Positions 1-5,236 of a stretch of DNA of 5,236 nt are shown in pieces. The notes beneath the pieces were generated by a model. It saw nothing but the letters and a program-made list of their open reading frames with translations, was not told the DNA's origin and did not search any database. Source of the stretch: Muribaculaceae bacterium (GTDB lineage Bacteria; Pseudomonadota; Alphaproteobacteria; Rs-D84); contig JAMPEH010000186.1 of assembly GCA_023665245.1 (NCBI GenBank), positions 1-5,236 of the forward strand, in the 5' to 3' direction. Every line of letters starts with the position of its first letter. The stretch's first letter is position 1. The translations under genes were made by a program, and so were the position numbers.

Positions 1-378
1 ACCCTGTGTGGCGGTCCGCTCGGTGACCGATATGGACGCAAACCCGTTATATGGGCGTCGATACTCGGCACTGCGCCATTTAGTATTTTAATGCCTCACG
101 TTGGACTGCCACTCACCGTCATACTCAGTTTTTGCGTCGGATTTATGCTGTCATCGGCATTTCCGGCTATACTGCTTTACAGTCAGGAGCTACTGCCCAA
201 CAAGCTTGGATTGGTCTCAGGGCTCTTCGTCGGCTTTGCGTTTGGAATTGCAGGAGTGGCATCAGCCGTACTTGGGGATTTCGCCGATGAATATGGCGTG
301 ACCGCTATATATAATGTATGCGGGTATATGCCGCTGCTTGGCTTCGTGGCAGCATTCATTCCCAATCTGAAGAAATAG
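1..378 (+). CDS. fsr: MFS transporter, fosmidomycin-resistance (Fsr) type, C-terminal part
   Basis: This is the last 125 residues of an inner-membrane major facilitator superfamily transporter; the N-terminal part lies before the window. The frame is open from base 1 and ends with TAG at 376-378. The fragment begins with a GGPLGDRYGRK stretch, the MFS motif-A-like loop of the C-terminal half. It continues with sequence recalling E. coli Fsr: an IWASILGTAPF helix, SAFPAILLYSQELLP, a glycine-rich GLFVGFAFGIAG helix, and a final CGYMPLLGF helix. About four membrane segments are therefore present. Fsr proteins of about 400 residues export fosmidomycin and probably other compounds; the natural substrate here is unknown. 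No terminator follows directly. The gene converges on the dicarboxylate transporter operon. Assignment to the Fsr subfamily rests on remembered sequence similarity, while MFS membership is more secure. Confidence 0.85.
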   Translation, partial: TLCGGPLGDRYGRKPVIWASILGTAPFSILMPHVGLPLTVILSFCVGFMLSSAFPAILLYSQELLPNKLGLVSGLFVGFAFGIAGVASAVLGDFADEYGVTAIYNVCGYMPLLGFVAAFIPNLKK

Positions 379-658
379 CCGACATTTGTCCCATTAGTCT
401 AAAAAGTTGGTCAATTTGTTTCATTTATCATAAAAGTTACAATATTTTTATCTCTATTAGGAATATCTTGCTATATTCGTGCAATGAAATACGTATAACA
501 GCAGGGTAGAATTTCAGTTTCGCACCTCTATTAACGACCCATTTTACATTACTTACTAACCAATTCATCATGATGATTATTCTTCACCCCATAAAAACAG
601 TAATATCAAGATAGTATCTCGTTGACGCCAAAGTTACGGGCTGCTATTACCGCATATA

Positions 659-687
659 TACCGGACTCATCAACCATGACTCCGGTA
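659..687 (+). repeat. Long imperfect hairpin upstream of a T9 run
   Basis: The arms taccgga (659-665) and tccggta (681-687) are exact reverse complements. After one C-C mismatch the stem continues with tcat (667-670) and atga (676-679) around a five-base loop. This gives 11 pairs in a 12-position stem. A run of nine T begins 15 bases further on (702-710). That gap is too long for a standard intrinsic terminator. A small alternative stem, gtag 685-688 with ctac 695-698, would bring a hairpin closer to the T-run while competing with the main one. It may be a weak or regulated terminator, or part of a structured RNA. Confidence 0.45.
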
Positions 688-793
688 GTGTCCCCTACAT
701 GTTTTTTTTTAAGTGTAATTAATAGTAATAATTGAAGACAAGTTAAAAACAATTGTAATTTAAGTGTATTCCTTACCTGATGTCTAATACCGC

Positions 794-838
794 GTGGGTG
801 CCGTGTTTTTCGTGATACAGTCGGCACCCACATTTTTT
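794..838 (+). terminator. Intrinsic terminator, plus strand
   Basis: A perfect 10-bp GC-rich stem (794-803 with 822-831) encloses an 18-base loop and is followed by six T at 833-838. On the plus strand this is a standard Rho-independent terminator, though with a large loop. It lies 11 bases before the last codon of the convergent dicarboxylate transporter gene, so it would stop antisense transcription from entering that gene. Read on the minus strand, the stem is preceded by an A-run and is not followed by T. It is thus not a good terminator for the transporter operon, though it could protect that mRNA's 3' end. Confidence 0.65.
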
Positions 839-849
839 AACAACGTTCT

Positions 850-2148
850 TTAATACAGTTGAATCATCAGCAATCCGGCAACAATAGCTACTGTTGTGGC
901 AACCAACCCGGGCATCATGAACGAATGATTCAGAACCCAGCGACCTATTCGCGTAGTGCCGGTACTGTCAAAATTGATTGCCGCCACTATAGTCGGATAA
1001 TTAGGTATGAAGAAATAACCGTTGACCGCCGGAAACAGAGCTATCAACATTAGCGGACTGATACCGAGAGCCACTCCAAGCGGCATTATAGCCCTCACCG
1101 TAGCCGCTTGACTGTAAAGCAATATCGACATAACAAACAACGCCACTCCGAATAGCCATGGCATACTGTTGACTATACCCTCAATCGAGCCTGTCAATGT
1201 AGCTATATTACCATTTATAAACGTATCGCCCATCCAGGCTATACCGAAAATGGCAATAACAGCCTGCATACCGGCAATAAACACGCTGCCTTGAGTTGGA
1301 GTGATTCCATTGGTTCGAGACAGAAGCAAAATTGCAGCCGACGTAGTAAGCATCAATATCTCTATCAATGAGGGCATATCGACCGATACACCGTTGCAAC
1401 TTGGTCGCAACGACGGAACAGAACCGAATAGAACTATCATAAATGTTGCAATGAGGAAAAGAATTACCGACAACCGAGCCTTGACCACATTGCGTATCTC
1501 ATTAACTTTCAGATTATTTTCCCTTATCATCCCAGACTCGATACGTCTCAGATACTCGGAATCTTTCTCAAGCTCACAGCCCACCCGCTTAGAGAAAAAA
1601 GCCCAGACAAGCACACCTATCAACGTGGCAGGCACAGTAATCTTCAATATGTCGAAAAGAGTGATATCAGCCCCCGAGAGCATTCCTAACAGCGCGACCG
1701 TGGCCGCTGAAATGGGACTCGCTGTAATGGCTTGCTGCGAGGCTATCACAGCGATACCGAGCGGACGTTCTGGACGAATCTTTGTCTCACGCGCCACCTC
1801 AGCTATGACAGGAAGCACCGAATAAGCCACGTGACCTGTTCCTGCTACAAAAGTAAACAGATAAGTCACGAGCGGGCTGACAATTGTCACCTGAGACGGA
1901 TTTTTACGCAACATCTTCTCTGCAATCCCGACCAAATAATCGAGACCGCCGGCTGCCTGCATGGCTGCAGCTGCAGAAATCACTGCCGCTATCATCAACA
2001 TCACGTCAATTGGGGGAGACGTAGGTTCAAGTCCAAACACAAACACGAGAACCGTCATTCCAACGCCACCCATCACTCCGAGTCCTATCCCTCCGAGCCG
2101 CGCACCGACTATAATGGCGGCAAGTACAAATAATAATTGAATAATCAT
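850..2148 (-). CDS. dcuB: Anaerobic C4-dicarboxylate transporter, DcuA/DcuB family
   Basis: This is a 432-residue inner-membrane exchanger; E. coli DcuA and DcuB have 433 and 446. The family swaps fumarate, malate or aspartate for succinate during anaerobic fumarate respiration. Family-typical stretches run the whole length: GARLGGIGLG near residue 15, PPIDVMLMIAAV (45-56), QAAGGLDYL (64-72), GTGHVAYSVLP (103-113), IRPERPLG (124-131), ITASPIS (141-147), LRPS (247-250), SQAAT (346-350), and a closing GTTRIGRWVLNHSF (397-410). Hydrophobic segments fill most of the rest. The start at 2148 was chosen because MIIQLLFVLAA matches the family's N-terminus and lies 17 bases after the upstream stop. 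The further upstream ATG at 2208 would overlap the preceding gene and add a non-family leader. The gene is cotranscribed behind a DcaP-like porin gene. DcuA and DcuB cannot be separated firmly here. Confidence 0.93.
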   Translation of the reverse strand: MIIQLLFVLAAIIVGARLGGIGLGVMGGVGMTVLVFVFGLEPTSPPIDVMLMIAAVISAAAAMQAAGGLDYLVGIAEKMLRKNPSQVTIVSPLVTYLFTFVAGTGHVAYSVLPVIAEVARETKIRPERPLGIAVIASQQAITASPISAATVALLGMLSGADITLFDILKITVPATLIGVLVWAFFSKRVGCELEKDSEYLRRIESGMIRENNLKVNEIRNVVKARLSVILFLIATFMIVLFGSVPSLRPSCNGVSVDMPSLIEILMLTTSAAILLLSRTNGITPTQGSVFIAGMQAVIAIFGIAWMGDTFINGNIATLTGSIEGIVNSMPWLFGVALFVMSILLYSQAATVRAIMPLGVALGISPLMLIALFPAVNGYFFIPNYPTIVAAINFDSTGTTRIGRWVLNHSFMMPGLVATTVAIVAGLLMIQLY

Positions 2149-2165
2149 AGTCTTTAAACAACCTG

Positions 2166-3467
2166 TTAAAATGAAAATTGTGCCATAACTCCCACCCTGC
2201 GAGCCCATCGATCGTGCCCGTCGACATTTTCGCGTCTGCCGAGATTAAACTCAGCTGCCATCTGTATGCGTGGAGTCAAATTCCAATATATATTGGCAGC
2301 CGTGTAGAGTCCGCTGCGATATTCGTCACCCGGAACCTTGCCGTCGGGATGATAAGAAGCACCTCCCACTGTTGCCGATACAAACAGATTCGGGCGAATA
2401 TTGAACTGCAACGCGCCATATCCTCCAAATGCCGCAGGCGCATAAAGGCGTCCTGCTTTTTCAAGGTCGGGCACCAGATCATAGTTACCCATAAGCCAAT
2501 CGCCACCAAGTCCGGCATAGCCATATCCGCCATTGAAGCACCCATAAACGGTAAATCGGCTATCAGGGTGCCATACGCCGGAAATCTGCGCTCCCCACCC
2601 TACTCTACAGTGATTACGTTCGGCAACAAGGTCGCGATAAGACATGAAACGCATCACTCCCGAGAGCCTGACGTGGTTTCCTCCTCCCCAAGAATATTGG
2701 GCGAAAGCAGCCACGTCGGGGGCATATTGTTCTACCTTGGCTGTGTAGATGTCAGTAGCGATTCTATCCGACGGCGTCTCAGCCGACAATGCCACACTGA
2801 AACCTTTTGGCAAATTATGCATCCAGCGAATCAGGACCGACGTAGCACTCATTTTGCAATTCGGTCCCGAAGCATCGACCGTCGGAGGCAAAGCCGCCGG
2901 GTCGCTGAATGTGGAATTGGCATAACCTATCGTAAAATCATTTATTACGGCATAAGCCTTTTTCAAATGAAAGTCACGAGATTCGTAGCCATTAAAATTG
3001 GCCTCGATATAAATCTGATATTCACCAAGAGCCTTATTGTTACCTATAACACGAAAAAACAAACAGGTCCCGGCAGGAGTGGTTCCAAAATACTTCTCAC
3101 GCAACGGATTTTTCTCCATAGGAATAAGATAGGGAGCAAATCCAGGAGCGGGGACGGCACCGCCCCAATCGAAATAACCACGCATTCTCACGCATCCGCC
3201 TATACCTGCCGCCAATTGTGAATCCTTGCTCATGAACAGAAAATAAGGTGCCAACGGATCAGAAAAATGACGGAACTGGTCGAAATAAAACATCTTTATC
3301 AAGTTCTCGACCGAATCGCGCGAGGGATTTGCTCCTTCTCCAATAAATACAATTTTATGGTCTCTGATAGTTGAATCCATTTGAATGTCACTCAAAGTCT
3401 TACCCTCAACCGACACTGCCGACAACAAAGATGCGGCGACCATAATATTCCAAAAAAATGTTCTCAT
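2166..3467 (-). CDS. DcaP-like outer membrane porin
   Basis: This 433-residue protein begins with a signal peptide: basic MR, a hydrophobic core about residues 4-20, and likely cleavage near VEG-K (residue 22). It ends in Phe (AQFSF), as outer membrane beta-barrels do. Alternating aromatic and small residues, Tyr/Gly-rich strands and the absence of internal membrane helices support a barrel. The stretches AAGIGGCVRMRGYFDWGG (86-103), LGEYQIYIEANF (147-158), FHLKKAYAVI (166-175), STFSDPAALPPTVDASGPN (185-203) and HVRLSGVMR (265-273) recall DcaP-like porins of Bacteroides. In Acinetobacter, DcaP channels pass dicarboxylates, which fits the dicarboxylate transporter gene 17 bases downstream. About 60 residues between the signal and the barrel form an uncertain N-terminal segment. 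The start at 3467 was chosen because the upstream ATG at 3506 precedes the -7 promoter box and lacks a signal peptide directly behind it. Family assignment is from memory; substrate is inferred. Confidence 0.85.
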   Translation of the reverse strand: MRTFFWNIMVAASLLSAVSVEGKTLSDIQMDSTIRDHKIVFIGEGANPSRDSVENLIKMFYFDQFRHFSDPLAPYFLFMSKDSQLAAGIGGCVRMRGYFDWGGAVPAPGFAPYLIPMEKNPLREKYFGTTPAGTCLFFRVIGNNKALGEYQIYIEANFNGYESRDFHLKKAYAVINDFTIGYANSTFSDPAALPPTVDASGPNCKMSATSVLIRWMHNLPKGFSVALSAETPSDRIATDIYTAKVEQYAPDVAAFAQYSWGGGNHVRLSGVMRFMSYRDLVAERNHCRVGWGAQISGVWHPDSRFTVYGCFNGGYGYAGLGGDWLMGNYDLVPDLEKAGRLYAPAAFGGYGALQFNIRPNLFVSATVGGASYHPDGKVPGDEYRSGLYTAANIYWNLTPRIQMAAEFNLGRRENVDGHDRWARRVGVMAQFSF

Positions 3468-3484
3468 GACACAAATAGTTGATA

Positions 3485-3492
3485 CAAATATA
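3485..3492 (-). promoter_or_regulatory. Bacteroidetes -7 box for the porin/dicarboxylate operon
   Basis: TATATTTG on the minus strand matches the Bacteroides TAnnTTTG consensus exactly. It ends 17 bases before the ATG at 3467, giving a predicted leader of only about 10-12 bases. No clear TTTG-type -33 element is seen; the best upstream match is a TTTA about 16 bases away. Its position rules out the ATG at 3506 as the main start, because that codon would lie upstream of the transcript. Confidence 0.65.
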
Positions 3493-3498
3493 CAACAA

Positions 3499-3533
3499 TA
3501 CGTCATCTTAAAGAGTTTTACGTTTTTTTACGT
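3499..3533. repeat. Phased TACGT repeats in the divergent promoter region
   Basis: TACGT occurs at 3499, 3519 and 3529, that is, spaced 20 and 10 bases apart, on the same face of the helix. The last two copies are part of a longer direct repeat, TTTTACGT, at 3516-3523 and 3526-3533. The last copy runs into the -7 box of the plus-strand HU gene, and the first lies just upstream of the minus-strand box. This arrangement could be an operator acting on both divergent promoters, but three five-base matches are weak evidence. Confidence 0.35.
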
Positions 3534-3540
3534 ATCTTTG
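3533..3540 (+). promoter_or_regulatory. Bacteroidetes -7 box for the HU gene pair
   Basis: TATCTTTG matches TAnnTTTG exactly and ends 17 bases before the ATG at 3558, mirroring the spacing of the divergent minus-strand promoter. No convincing -33 element is visible. The expected leader of roughly 11 bases has no Shine-Dalgarno sequence, which is common in this phylum. Confidence 0.65.
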
Positions 3541-3557
3541 TCAACAATTTTTGCCCT

Positions 3558-3836
3558 ATGGACAACAACACATTCATAAATCATTTCGCCAAATTATCGG
3601 GACTCGACCCCAACACGGCAACCCGTCATGTTGAAACTATCGCTTCGACACTTCAGACTGCTCTCGTTGCCGGTGATTCAGTAGCGATACCCGGTTTTGG
3701 GCAATTCGAATCAGTAAAGGAGAACGAACGGGTTGTCAAAGACCTGTCTACCGGTCAACACATATTACTGCCTCCTGTCATAGAAATCCGCTTCACCCCC
3801 GCAGCAGCGTTGGTAAAAGCAGTAAGCCGTTGTTAG
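3558..3836 (+). CDS. HU/IHF-family DNA-binding protein
   Basis: This is a small 92-residue protein of the HU/IHF superfamily, at the family's usual length of about 90-100. It shows the standard order: two N-terminal helices (about 4-36, with FINHFAKLSGL), the turn VAIPGFGQF (42-50) matching the HU signature before the beta sheet, a beta-arm region (about 52-77), and the closing IRFTPAAALVKAV helix (77-89). HU proteins bind and bend DNA as dimers through the arm. Here the usual Asn-Pro-x-Thr-Gly arm tip reads KDLSTG (61-66), so the intercalating proline is missing and the arm has few basic residues. It lies 3 bases before a second HU-like gene and certainly shares its transcript. The two may form a heterodimer. 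It is unlikely to be the cell's main HU. Its own DNA-binding strength is uncertain. Confidence 0.88.
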   Translation: MDNNTFINHFAKLSGLDPNTATRHVETIASTLQTALVAGDSVAIPGFGQFESVKENERVVKDLSTGQHILLPPVIEIRFTPAAALVKAVSRC

Positions 3837-3839
3837 TAT

Positions 3840-4832
3840 ATGCAAAACACGATTACACTGTCGCAGTTCGTTGAACTGATGATTAAAAATTCCTCCGTCA
3901 TAGACAACAAGGAAGAAATCGAGACCGTCACCAAGCAATTCTTCAATGCGATAACCGATGCGCTCAGAATTGAAAGCAGCGTGAAAATAAGCGATTTCGG
4001 CTCCTTTGTCATCAACGAACTTGACCCTTCGGAGATATCATTCATCCCCGAAAAGAGCATCGCTGAAGCGGTTAATGAACCGTTTGGCTTTTTCGAGCCC
4101 GTCGAACTCAACAACGGAGTGACTGAGGAAATGCTTCAAAATGCCGAGATAGAAGCTGACGGCAAAACCGAATCTCAACAGGAACCGGTAGCGGAACCAC
4201 CGACTGAATCCGTTGACCGACCGGAACCAATTGTAATACCGGAACCTGAAACTGAAAAAGAGACAGAACATGCAACGGAACCCGTAAAAGAAACGGGATA
4301 TGTCCCTGAACCCGTCAACATACCGGAAACTGAAGAAAAAATTGTATATGTCTACAAAAAAGTGTTCCCATGGTGGTATGCGTTGATTGCAGGTGTTGCT
4401 GCCGGCATTGTCATAGGATTATTCACTTTTATAACTGACAGACCTTCATCGGTCGACAACACAAAATTGGACGAGATTGCCAAAATTGAAAGTATCGACC
4501 CGGTTCCTGTTGACACGGAGATTGCAGCTCCTGTCGATTCTATTATCGAAGAAACCGAAGAAGAATATACCGACGAAACGGTTATAACCGACACGATAAG
4601 AACCAACCGATTTCTCACCACCATGGCGAGAAAACATTATGGCGAAATGCACTTTTGGGTGTATATCTACGAAGAAAACAGTCAAAATCTCGGCAACCCC
4701 GACCGCATTTCCCCCAACACTATCGTCGTAATCCCCCCTGCCGAAAAATATGGAATCGACAAAAATAATCCCGAAAGTGTAGCTGCCGCTAAACAAAAAG
4801 CAGCTGAAATCTATTCTAAGTATAAACAATAG
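3840..4832 (+). CDS. Membrane-anchored HU-like protein with periplasmic LysM-like domain
   Basis: This 330-residue protein has a striking domain order. Residues 5-90 form an HU-like domain: helix TLSQFVELMI, the VKISDFGSF turn at 48-56, then SFIPEKSIAEAVNEPFGFFEPVEL at 67-90. Residues about 95-168 are a Pro/Glu-rich linker with repeated EPV and PEP units. One membrane helix covers about 177-198, preceded by KK (173-174) and followed by acidic residues, which predicts a cytoplasmic N-terminus. An acidic periplasmic stretch (about 209-252) leads to a LysM-like domain at about 250-300, with MARKHYG, WVYIYEEN, NPDRISP and IVVIP. A short Ala/Lys helix closes it. LysM domains bind peptidoglycan. 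The HU domain lacks the long beta-arm: only 11 residues separate the GSF and SFIP phenylalanines, against 28 in the neighbouring HU protein. It may therefore bind a partner rather than DNA. The start follows the HU stop by 3 bases and has no Shine-Dalgarno sequence. Function is inferred from domains only. Confidence 0.88.
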   Translation: MQNTITLSQFVELMIKNSSVIDNKEEIETVTKQFFNAITDALRIESSVKISDFGSFVINELDPSEISFIPEKSIAEAVNEPFGFFEPVELNNGVTEEMLQNAEIEADGKTESQQEPVAEPPTESVDRPEPIVIPEPETEKETEHATEPVKETGYVPEPVNIPETEEKIVYVYKKVFPWWYALIAGVAAGIVIGLFTFITDRPSSVDNTKLDEIAKIESIDPVPVDTEIAAPVDSIIEETEEEYTDETVITDTIRTNRFLTTMARKHYGEMHFWVYIYEENSQNLGNPDRISPNTIVVIPPAEKYGIDKNNPESVAAAKQKAAEIYSKYKQ

Positions 4833-4861
4833 TTTGTCATAGCTAACAGCCTGACCTTGTT

Positions 4862-4896
4862 TTTAACATGTTAAACTATTAATAGTTAAATTTAAC
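4862..4896. repeat. Three chained palindromes with TTTAAC half-sites
   Basis: Three perfect palindromes follow each other with 1-3 bases of overlap: tttaacatgttaaa (4862-4875), aactattaatagtt (4874-4887) and gttaaatttaac (4885-4896). The first and third are built from the same half-site, TTTAAC/GTTAAA, in opposite arrangements, giving four half-sites in 35 bases. AT-rich sequence makes short palindromes common, but three perfect ones of 12-14 bases in a chain stand out. They could form a multi-dimer operator site or a cruciform. Confidence 0.5.
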
Positions 4897-4910
4897 ATAT
4901 ATTGGCGGTC

Positions 4911-4944
4911 TATGTTACAATGCAAATATTAATTTTGTAACATA
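4911..4944. repeat. Inverted repeat overlapping the moxR -7 box
   Basis: tatgttacaa (4911-4920) and ttgtaacata (4935-4944) are exact reverse complements, separated by 14 bases. The right arm overlaps the last three bases of the -7 box, so a protein bound here would compete with RNA polymerase. A further GTTACA at 4953-4958 forms a second inverted pair with TGTAAC at 4936-4941. Repressor binding is the simplest reading. An RNA hairpin is unlikely because the transcript should start near the right arm. Confidence 0.5.
4930..4937 (+). promoter_or_regulatory. Bacteroidetes -7 box for the moxR gene
   Basis: TAATTTTG matches TAnnTTTG exactly and is 61 bases before the ATG at 4999, giving a leader of about 55 bases. 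A TTG at 4902-4904 lies 25 bases upstream, longer than the usual spacing, so the -33 element is uncertain. The box suggests that the ATPase gene has its own promoter. Confidence 0.55.
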
Positions 4945-4998
4945 AATTATACGTTACATAGATAGAATAAACAAATAACTACACAATATAATAACACA

Positions 4999-5236
4999 AT
5001 GAGTCAACCGGTAGATATCAGACAACTCAATGACATGGTTGCATCCAAGAGCAACTTTATCAACATCATCTCCAAGGGGATGGATCAGCGCATAGTAGGA
5101 CAGAAGCATCTCGTGGAATCGCTGCTTATTGCGCTTCTTTCCAACGGACACGTACTGCTTGAAGGCGTTCCCGGATTGGCAAAAACCTTGGCAATAAAGA
5201 CATTGGCCCAATTGATTGACGCCAAATACAGCCGCA
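4999..5236 (+). CDS. MoxR-family AAA+ ATPase, N-terminal part
   Basis: Only the first 79 codons are present; MoxR ATPases are usually about 320-330 residues. The fragment shows the family's N-terminal pattern: a leading helix, then [19 protein letters not shown] (29-47), [13 protein letters not shown] with the Walker A lysine and threonine at 62-63, and a following helix ending in [10 protein letters not shown]. Walker B, sensor and arginine-finger residues lie beyond the window. MoxR proteins act as chaperone-like ATPases, commonly with DUF58 and von Willebrand A-domain partners encoded downstream, and affect envelope or stress functions. The ATG at 4999 starts a full family N-terminus; its leader is A-rich and lacks a Shine-Dalgarno sequence. 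It follows the LysM-linked HU gene in the same direction but with its own promoter-like site. Confidence 0.9.

Follow-up and report, generated by a model that had tools for sequence, protein, structure and literature searches.

Can a membrane protein tie the nucleoid, or some other cytoplasmic structure, to the bacterial cell wall? The question is raised by a gene on contig JAMPEH010000186.1, assigned to a Muribaculaceae bacterium, of which we analysed positions 1 to 5,236 (the window; 5,236 nucleotides). The gene encodes a fusion protein, P0001, with an HU domain at one end and a LysM fold at the other. Only three bases separate it from an upstream gene for a small HU-family protein, P0002, and this pairing recurs in related loci. 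To our knowledge, chromosome positioning and segregation have been little studied in Bacteroidales. A conserved protein pair that could link cytoplasm or nucleoid to the cell wall is a concrete, testable candidate. The two genes and their parts are as follows.

3558..3836, + strand: small HU-family protein P0002, 92 amino acids, with a full-length beta arm; proposed partner subunit (PF00216, 1.8e-16, profile positions 1-89 of 90)
3840..4832, + strand: HU-linker-membrane helix-LysM fusion protein P0001, 330 amino acids
3840..4088, + strand: arm-less HU domain, residues 1-83 of the fusion protein (from profile and fold)
4074..4109, + strand: conserved motif NxPFxxFEPVEL, residues 79-90, at the end of the HU fold and beyond (N79, F82 and F85 invariant across all 120 listed family members)
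4110..4352, + strand: linker rich in Pro and Glu, residues 91-171
4374..4436, + strand: membrane helix, residues 179-199
4437..4583, + strand: acidic stretch, residues 200-248, net charge -13
4584..4739, + strand: LysM fold, residues 249-300
4770..4817, + strand: conserved C-terminal helix downstream of LysM, residues 311-326 (A317 invariant)

Profiles and predicted folds confirmed the domain order given in a preliminary description of this DNA (HU, Pro/Glu linker, one helix, acidic stretch, LysM). PF00216 matched the fusion protein with 26.5 bits (cut-off 22.4), covering profile positions 3-54 of 90 only. The structure model and its structural matches gave an HU fold for the N-terminal domain and a LysM fold for residues 249-300; neither of the folds earlier proposed for the two ends was refuted. 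Within the linker, predicted-structure confidence was below 60 from about residue 111 to 170. The protein is part of a large Bacteroidales family, for which we compared 120 listed members (119 homologues and the window protein) out of 939 related proteins. Across these, residues 63-100 are on average better conserved than residues 1-62. As a guess, the NxPFxxFEPVEL motif in this stretch may serve for docking or as a dimer lock.

A survey of the gene pair, proposed in the preliminary description, was run on related loci and bore the pairing out. A gene for a small HU protein (~90 amino acids) directly precedes the fusion gene in all 76 related loci with room upstream. This count was taken over 80 loci: 75 were scored by script, 4 lacked room and one, L006, was recovered separately. 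In L006 the fusion start had been miscalled, and the small HU gene overlaps the true start by four bases. The next gene downstream encodes a MoxR-type ATPase in 45 of 78 loci with room (2 of the 80 were left out for want of it). In the other 33 it is not next, although 3 of these have one further downstream. Thus, the pairing of HU genes exceeds ordinary gene-order conservation. Among the 80 loci, which are the best of 224, 75 are titled Bacteroidales, 3 Firmicutes and 2 have no title at that rank. The Firmicutes titles are Pseudoflavonifractor (L003), Lachnospiraceae (L009) and Lachnoclostridium (L079), yet the genes group with Bacteroidales rows in our tree; these are probably mislabelled metagenome bins.

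The same pairing was evident in a panel of 198 Bacteroidales genomes, where matches at E up to 1e-10 only were counted and more diverged forms may be missed. A match was found in 38 genomes. In 34 of these there are 35 loci matching both the HU end and the LysM end, and the other 4 have LysM-only proteins. A strong hydrophobic stretch is present in 34 of the 35 loci, with L168 marginally below. In 30 loci the fusion gene is preceded by a small HU gene. The 5 loci without it have an extra HU in the same frame, detected by profile in L156, L158, L162 and L175 and by eye in L160; in L156 and L158 the N-terminal HU is over the Pfam cut-off. Hence, two HU units accompany the LysM form, either in trans or in cis, though L160 calls for caution.

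The membrane topology was read from charge. In the window protein VYKKVFPW precedes the helix and the stretch of net -13 follows it. In the family, the K/R count is higher before the helix than after it in 79 of 120 members, equal in 36 and lower in 5. By the positive-inside rule, HU inside and LysM outside is therefore the better reading. The cytoplasmic HU and periplasmic LysM of the preliminary description are supported to that extent.

Our preferred explanation, which we regard as probable, is that the small HU and the HU end of the fusion together make an HU heterodimer that is anchored in the membrane and fixed to the wall, with the HU head as a docking point. The complex would be of the HU/IHF type, one half being the small HU and the other the fusion's HU end. 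It would sit on the cytoplasmic face of the inner membrane, anchored via the single helix of the fusion, and LysM across the membrane would hold it to peptidoglycan. The HU head would thus be a docking point fixed to the wall. In relatives with both arms the head could grip nucleoid DNA, which is plausible. In the window lineage, where one arm is gone and the other is without its tip proline, DNA contact would be weak or confined to the partner, and proteins may be the main ligands of the head. For this lineage, a protein scaffold and a weak tether through the partner seem about equally likely.

Several points concerning the dimer, DNA and the wall weigh against this explanation. We infer heterodimer formation from a model in which the two HU parts of the window form a single read-through chain. 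The model has a predicted template modelling score (pTM) of 0.70 and aligns with single-chain IHF, but it joins the halves via two residues (the stop codon as Q, then Y) and was made from 13 aligned sequences with no negative control. The alignment comprised the window and 12 in-frame loci; L032, cut at its 5' end, was left out of the 13 in-frame pairs. The dimer arrangement could be forced in such a model, and HU proteins also form homodimers. When the HU of the cis loci was tested with Pfam, L160 and L162 gave no match and L175 was below the cut-off.

With regard to DNA, the window fusion HU has 11 residues between the conserved GxF, in the second strand, and the third strand. HU has ~28 residues at this position, that of the DNA-gripping arm, as do 17 of the 120 family members. 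A full arm is missing in the other 103, including the window protein, whose HU part has a net charge of -7. Thus, the domain keeps the HU body without the DNA grip, and probably does not hold DNA on its own. All 76 aligned small HUs (75 loci and the window) have an arm of 26-28 residues. However, P0002 has a net charge of -1 and reads KDLSTG, with leucine where the arm-tip proline, intercalating in HU/IHF, is expected. A route to DNA via P0002 is therefore uncertain in the window.

The partner route looks stronger in related lineages with an arm, which make up 28 of the 69 pairs compared (6 of 75 were left out because the motif was not recognisable). Fusions were classed as arm-bearing on length, with at least 92 residues up to the NxPF motif; partial arms were thereby counted as arm-less. 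In the 28 arm-bearing pairs the fusion HU has a mean net charge of +0.5 and its partner of +7.75; in the 41 arm-less pairs the means are -4.9 and +1.9. The partner has the tip proline in 28 of 28 arm-bearing pairs and in 11 of the 41 arm-less ones. In the tree, L049 is closest to the window; both are arm-less and lack the tip proline, and each has two net-negative halves. A natural series from arm-bearing to arm-less pairs allows DNA binding to be separated from anchoring.

Once kinship was allowed for, on a tree of 73 rows, arm loss and proline loss were less clearly linked: 5 independent pairs gave p 0.25. On average, 2.7 of these agreed, 2.3 were without difference and none was opposed. The reverse test had 7 independent pairs, of which 1.9 agreed on average (p 0.5). 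The pair test used 70 of the 73 rows. L006, with no proline label and an unreliable arm label, was outside it but entered the count of arm changes (8). Independent co-loss of arm and proline, resting on few independent events, is thus suggestive only, and we did not adopt it.

At the wall end, the Pfam LysM profile had no match in the fusion protein at E up to 1, and NCBIfam YgaU/LysM scored 20.1 bits against a cut-off of 134. Among solved structures, the LysM is best matched by Kbp and by LysMs of injection machines, not by wall hydrolases. Hence, peptidoglycan binding is assumed here. The same LysM type ends an open reading frame at L169:1976-3601, which has an OmpA domain and a beta-barrel match just below the cut-off. 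L170, L171, L172 and L173 encode proteins of 153-159 amino acids whose match to the family profile is confined to the LysM part. A weak PADLOC match of the LysM end to Cas10b (E 1.5e-4, 20.2 bits) was taken as chance and a defence system was rejected; PADLOC gave no match for P0002.

The best-placed alternative is that the HU head is a protein-binding scaffold without DNA contact, linking a cytoplasmic structure (for example, a division or motility complex) to the wall. A scaffold role has been proposed for tandem HU domains of the CCDC81 type. Such a role would suit the window, where the fusion HU is arm-less and acidic and the partner is slightly negative without a tip proline. It would also suit the best-conserved cytoplasmic stretch, residues 63-100 with NxPFxxFEPVEL, being outside the DNA arm. 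Furthermore, chains of microtubule doublets and of a Mycoplasma gliding machine are among the structures that best match the pair model, from entries with titles that are not about DNA. These chains we take to be CCDC81-type tandem HU proteins. One paper places CCDC81b in Tetrahymena doublets, in passages that do not mention HU domains (PMC11961760). Conversely, the full-length arm in all 76 small HUs, and the 28 of 69 pairs with an arm, a tip proline and a mean charge above zero, are hard to square with DNA never having mattered. We therefore consider a pure scaffold possible but not likely; HU dimers as protein scaffolds in bacteria are now a testable idea.

A tether in which the fusion's own HU domain binds DNA directly, as the preliminary description mainly proposed, is improbable. 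The PF00216 match, the HU fold and the topology all accord with it. So does HubP of Vibrio cholerae, a LysM membrane protein that helps to hold a chromosome origin at the pole via ParA1 (PMC8789113). The acidic HU part and the arm missing from 103 of 120 family members argue otherwise. Support for the nucleoid-to-wall tether is partial, the idea gaining from the partner gene and losing from the missing arm. The version resting on the fusion HU itself is unlikely, and that resting on a nucleoid-bound partner fits better because a full-armed small HU lies upstream in 76 of 76 loci and 30 of 35 panel loci.

We give still less credence to a sensor of wall stress, in which LysM occupancy would act through the helix so that the HU head frees the small HU or alters nearby transcription, perhaps together with the MoxR ATPase. 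In its favour, most loci encode the small HU separately, as a subunit that could be released, and MoxR is the next gene in 45 of 78. However, it is not next door in 33, cis forms are unable to release a subunit, and long linkers of low model confidence would pass signals poorly. Just as doubtful is a Kbp-like LysM with ions or protein, not peptidoglycan, as its ligand and hence no wall link, even though the closest solved folds are Kbp and the LysMs of injection systems, and Pfam LysM is unmatched.

The nearest known kind to the proposed heterodimer is the HU-CCDC81 family. This bacterial family (PF18174 with PF18175) was reportedly described by Burroughs et al. in 2017 as proteins of HU-HU-membrane helix-SPOR type. 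No paper on HU-LysM fusions appeared among the listings of our literature searches, which did not cover that 2017 work. Both designs have two HU units, a linker, one membrane helix and a C-terminal domain of peptidoglycan-binding type, and in the family of the window protein PF18175 matched 19 of the 30 members tested (E up to 0.01). They differ in that the C-terminal domain is LysM rather than SPOR, the first HU usually has its own gene and a full arm, and the family's HU is closer to canonical PF00216 (30 of 30 tested). For the window fusion neither PF18174 nor PF18175 was listed at E up to 1, and P0002 scored 17.3 and 17.7 bits, under the cut-offs of 26 and 35. The two HU units of the window lie in two genes rather than one chain, the cis arrangement being limited to 5 of 35 panel loci (one by eye). 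SPOR was not listed for the fusion at E up to 1, and a LysM fold is there instead. Hence, HU-CCDC81 was rejected as the identity of the window protein, which by these comparisons is a sister design and not a member.

HU-CCDC81 is widespread in Bacteroidales: of the 198 panel genomes, 165 have a PF18174 match above the cut-off and 154 such a match to PF18175. By hand count, PF18174 matches in 28 of 34 LysM-form genomes and 146 of 164 others. Thus, the LysM and SPOR forms coexist, and replacement of one by the other was rejected. We chose 20 SPOR-form loci from the PF18175 match list, and all 20 were read by eye as HU-HU-linker-helix-SPOR. A script found a GxF-type motif in the first HU, and a strong hydrophobic stretch, in each of the 20. 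Profile matches to the first HU are weak, with none in L148 and L149. SPOR was tested with Pfam in 2 of the 20, being over the cut-off in L143 and without a match in L136. We suggest, with considerable reservation, that Bacteroidales have a second, split membrane two-HU machine. This IHF-like heterodimer, with one half fixed to membrane and wall, would have begun as a nucleoid-wall tether and become an arm-less scaffold in the window lineage, in parallel with eukaryotic CCDC81 tandem-HU proteins.

Other systems are more distant. HU/IHF nucleoid proteins share the HU fold and, in the model, a heterodimer-like arrangement, but the window system is membrane-anchored, carries a wall-type domain and has a fusion without a DNA arm. 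Kbp (YgaU) of E. coli, a soluble, potassium-binding protein, shares the LysM fold as nearest solved match but has neither HU nor membrane helix. The polar landmark proteins HubP and FimV bear comparison with the window protein, having a periplasmic LysM, one membrane helix and an acidic cytosolic part. The window protein has LysM, one helix and acidic stretches. However, the domain order is reversed, TPR stands in place of HU (Pfam listed no TPR in the window protein), and the comparison is one of working, without demonstrated sequence kinship. The periplasmic LysM of V. cholerae HubP is necessary and sufficient for the pole, and the protein affects the position of the chromosome-1 origin via ParA1 (PMC8789113). 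HubP is a functional parallel to the proposed wall-anchored HU head.

Two further features flank the gene pair.

3533..3540, + strand: promoter-like TAnnTTTG box, separated by 17 bases from the small HU start codon
4999..5235, + strand: beginning of a gene for a MoxR-type AAA ATPase, often but not always found alongside

We take TAnnTTTG to be the promoter box consensus. It has 6 matches in the window compared with 4.2 expected by chance, and only position favours 3533..3540 as a promoter. The gap before the MoxR gene (4833-4998) is AT-rich and contains palindromic runs as well as a TAnnTTTG box (4930-4937); this may be a separate promoter for that gene. On the - strand, 2166-3506 is a 446-amino acid open reading frame, divergent from the small HU gene, that looks like an outer-membrane protein by eye and for which neither Pfam nor NCBIfam gave a match (E up to 1). 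Positions 850-2208 of the same strand encode an anaerobic C4-dicarboxylate transporter of the DcuA/DcuB type (PF03605, 1.9e-149).
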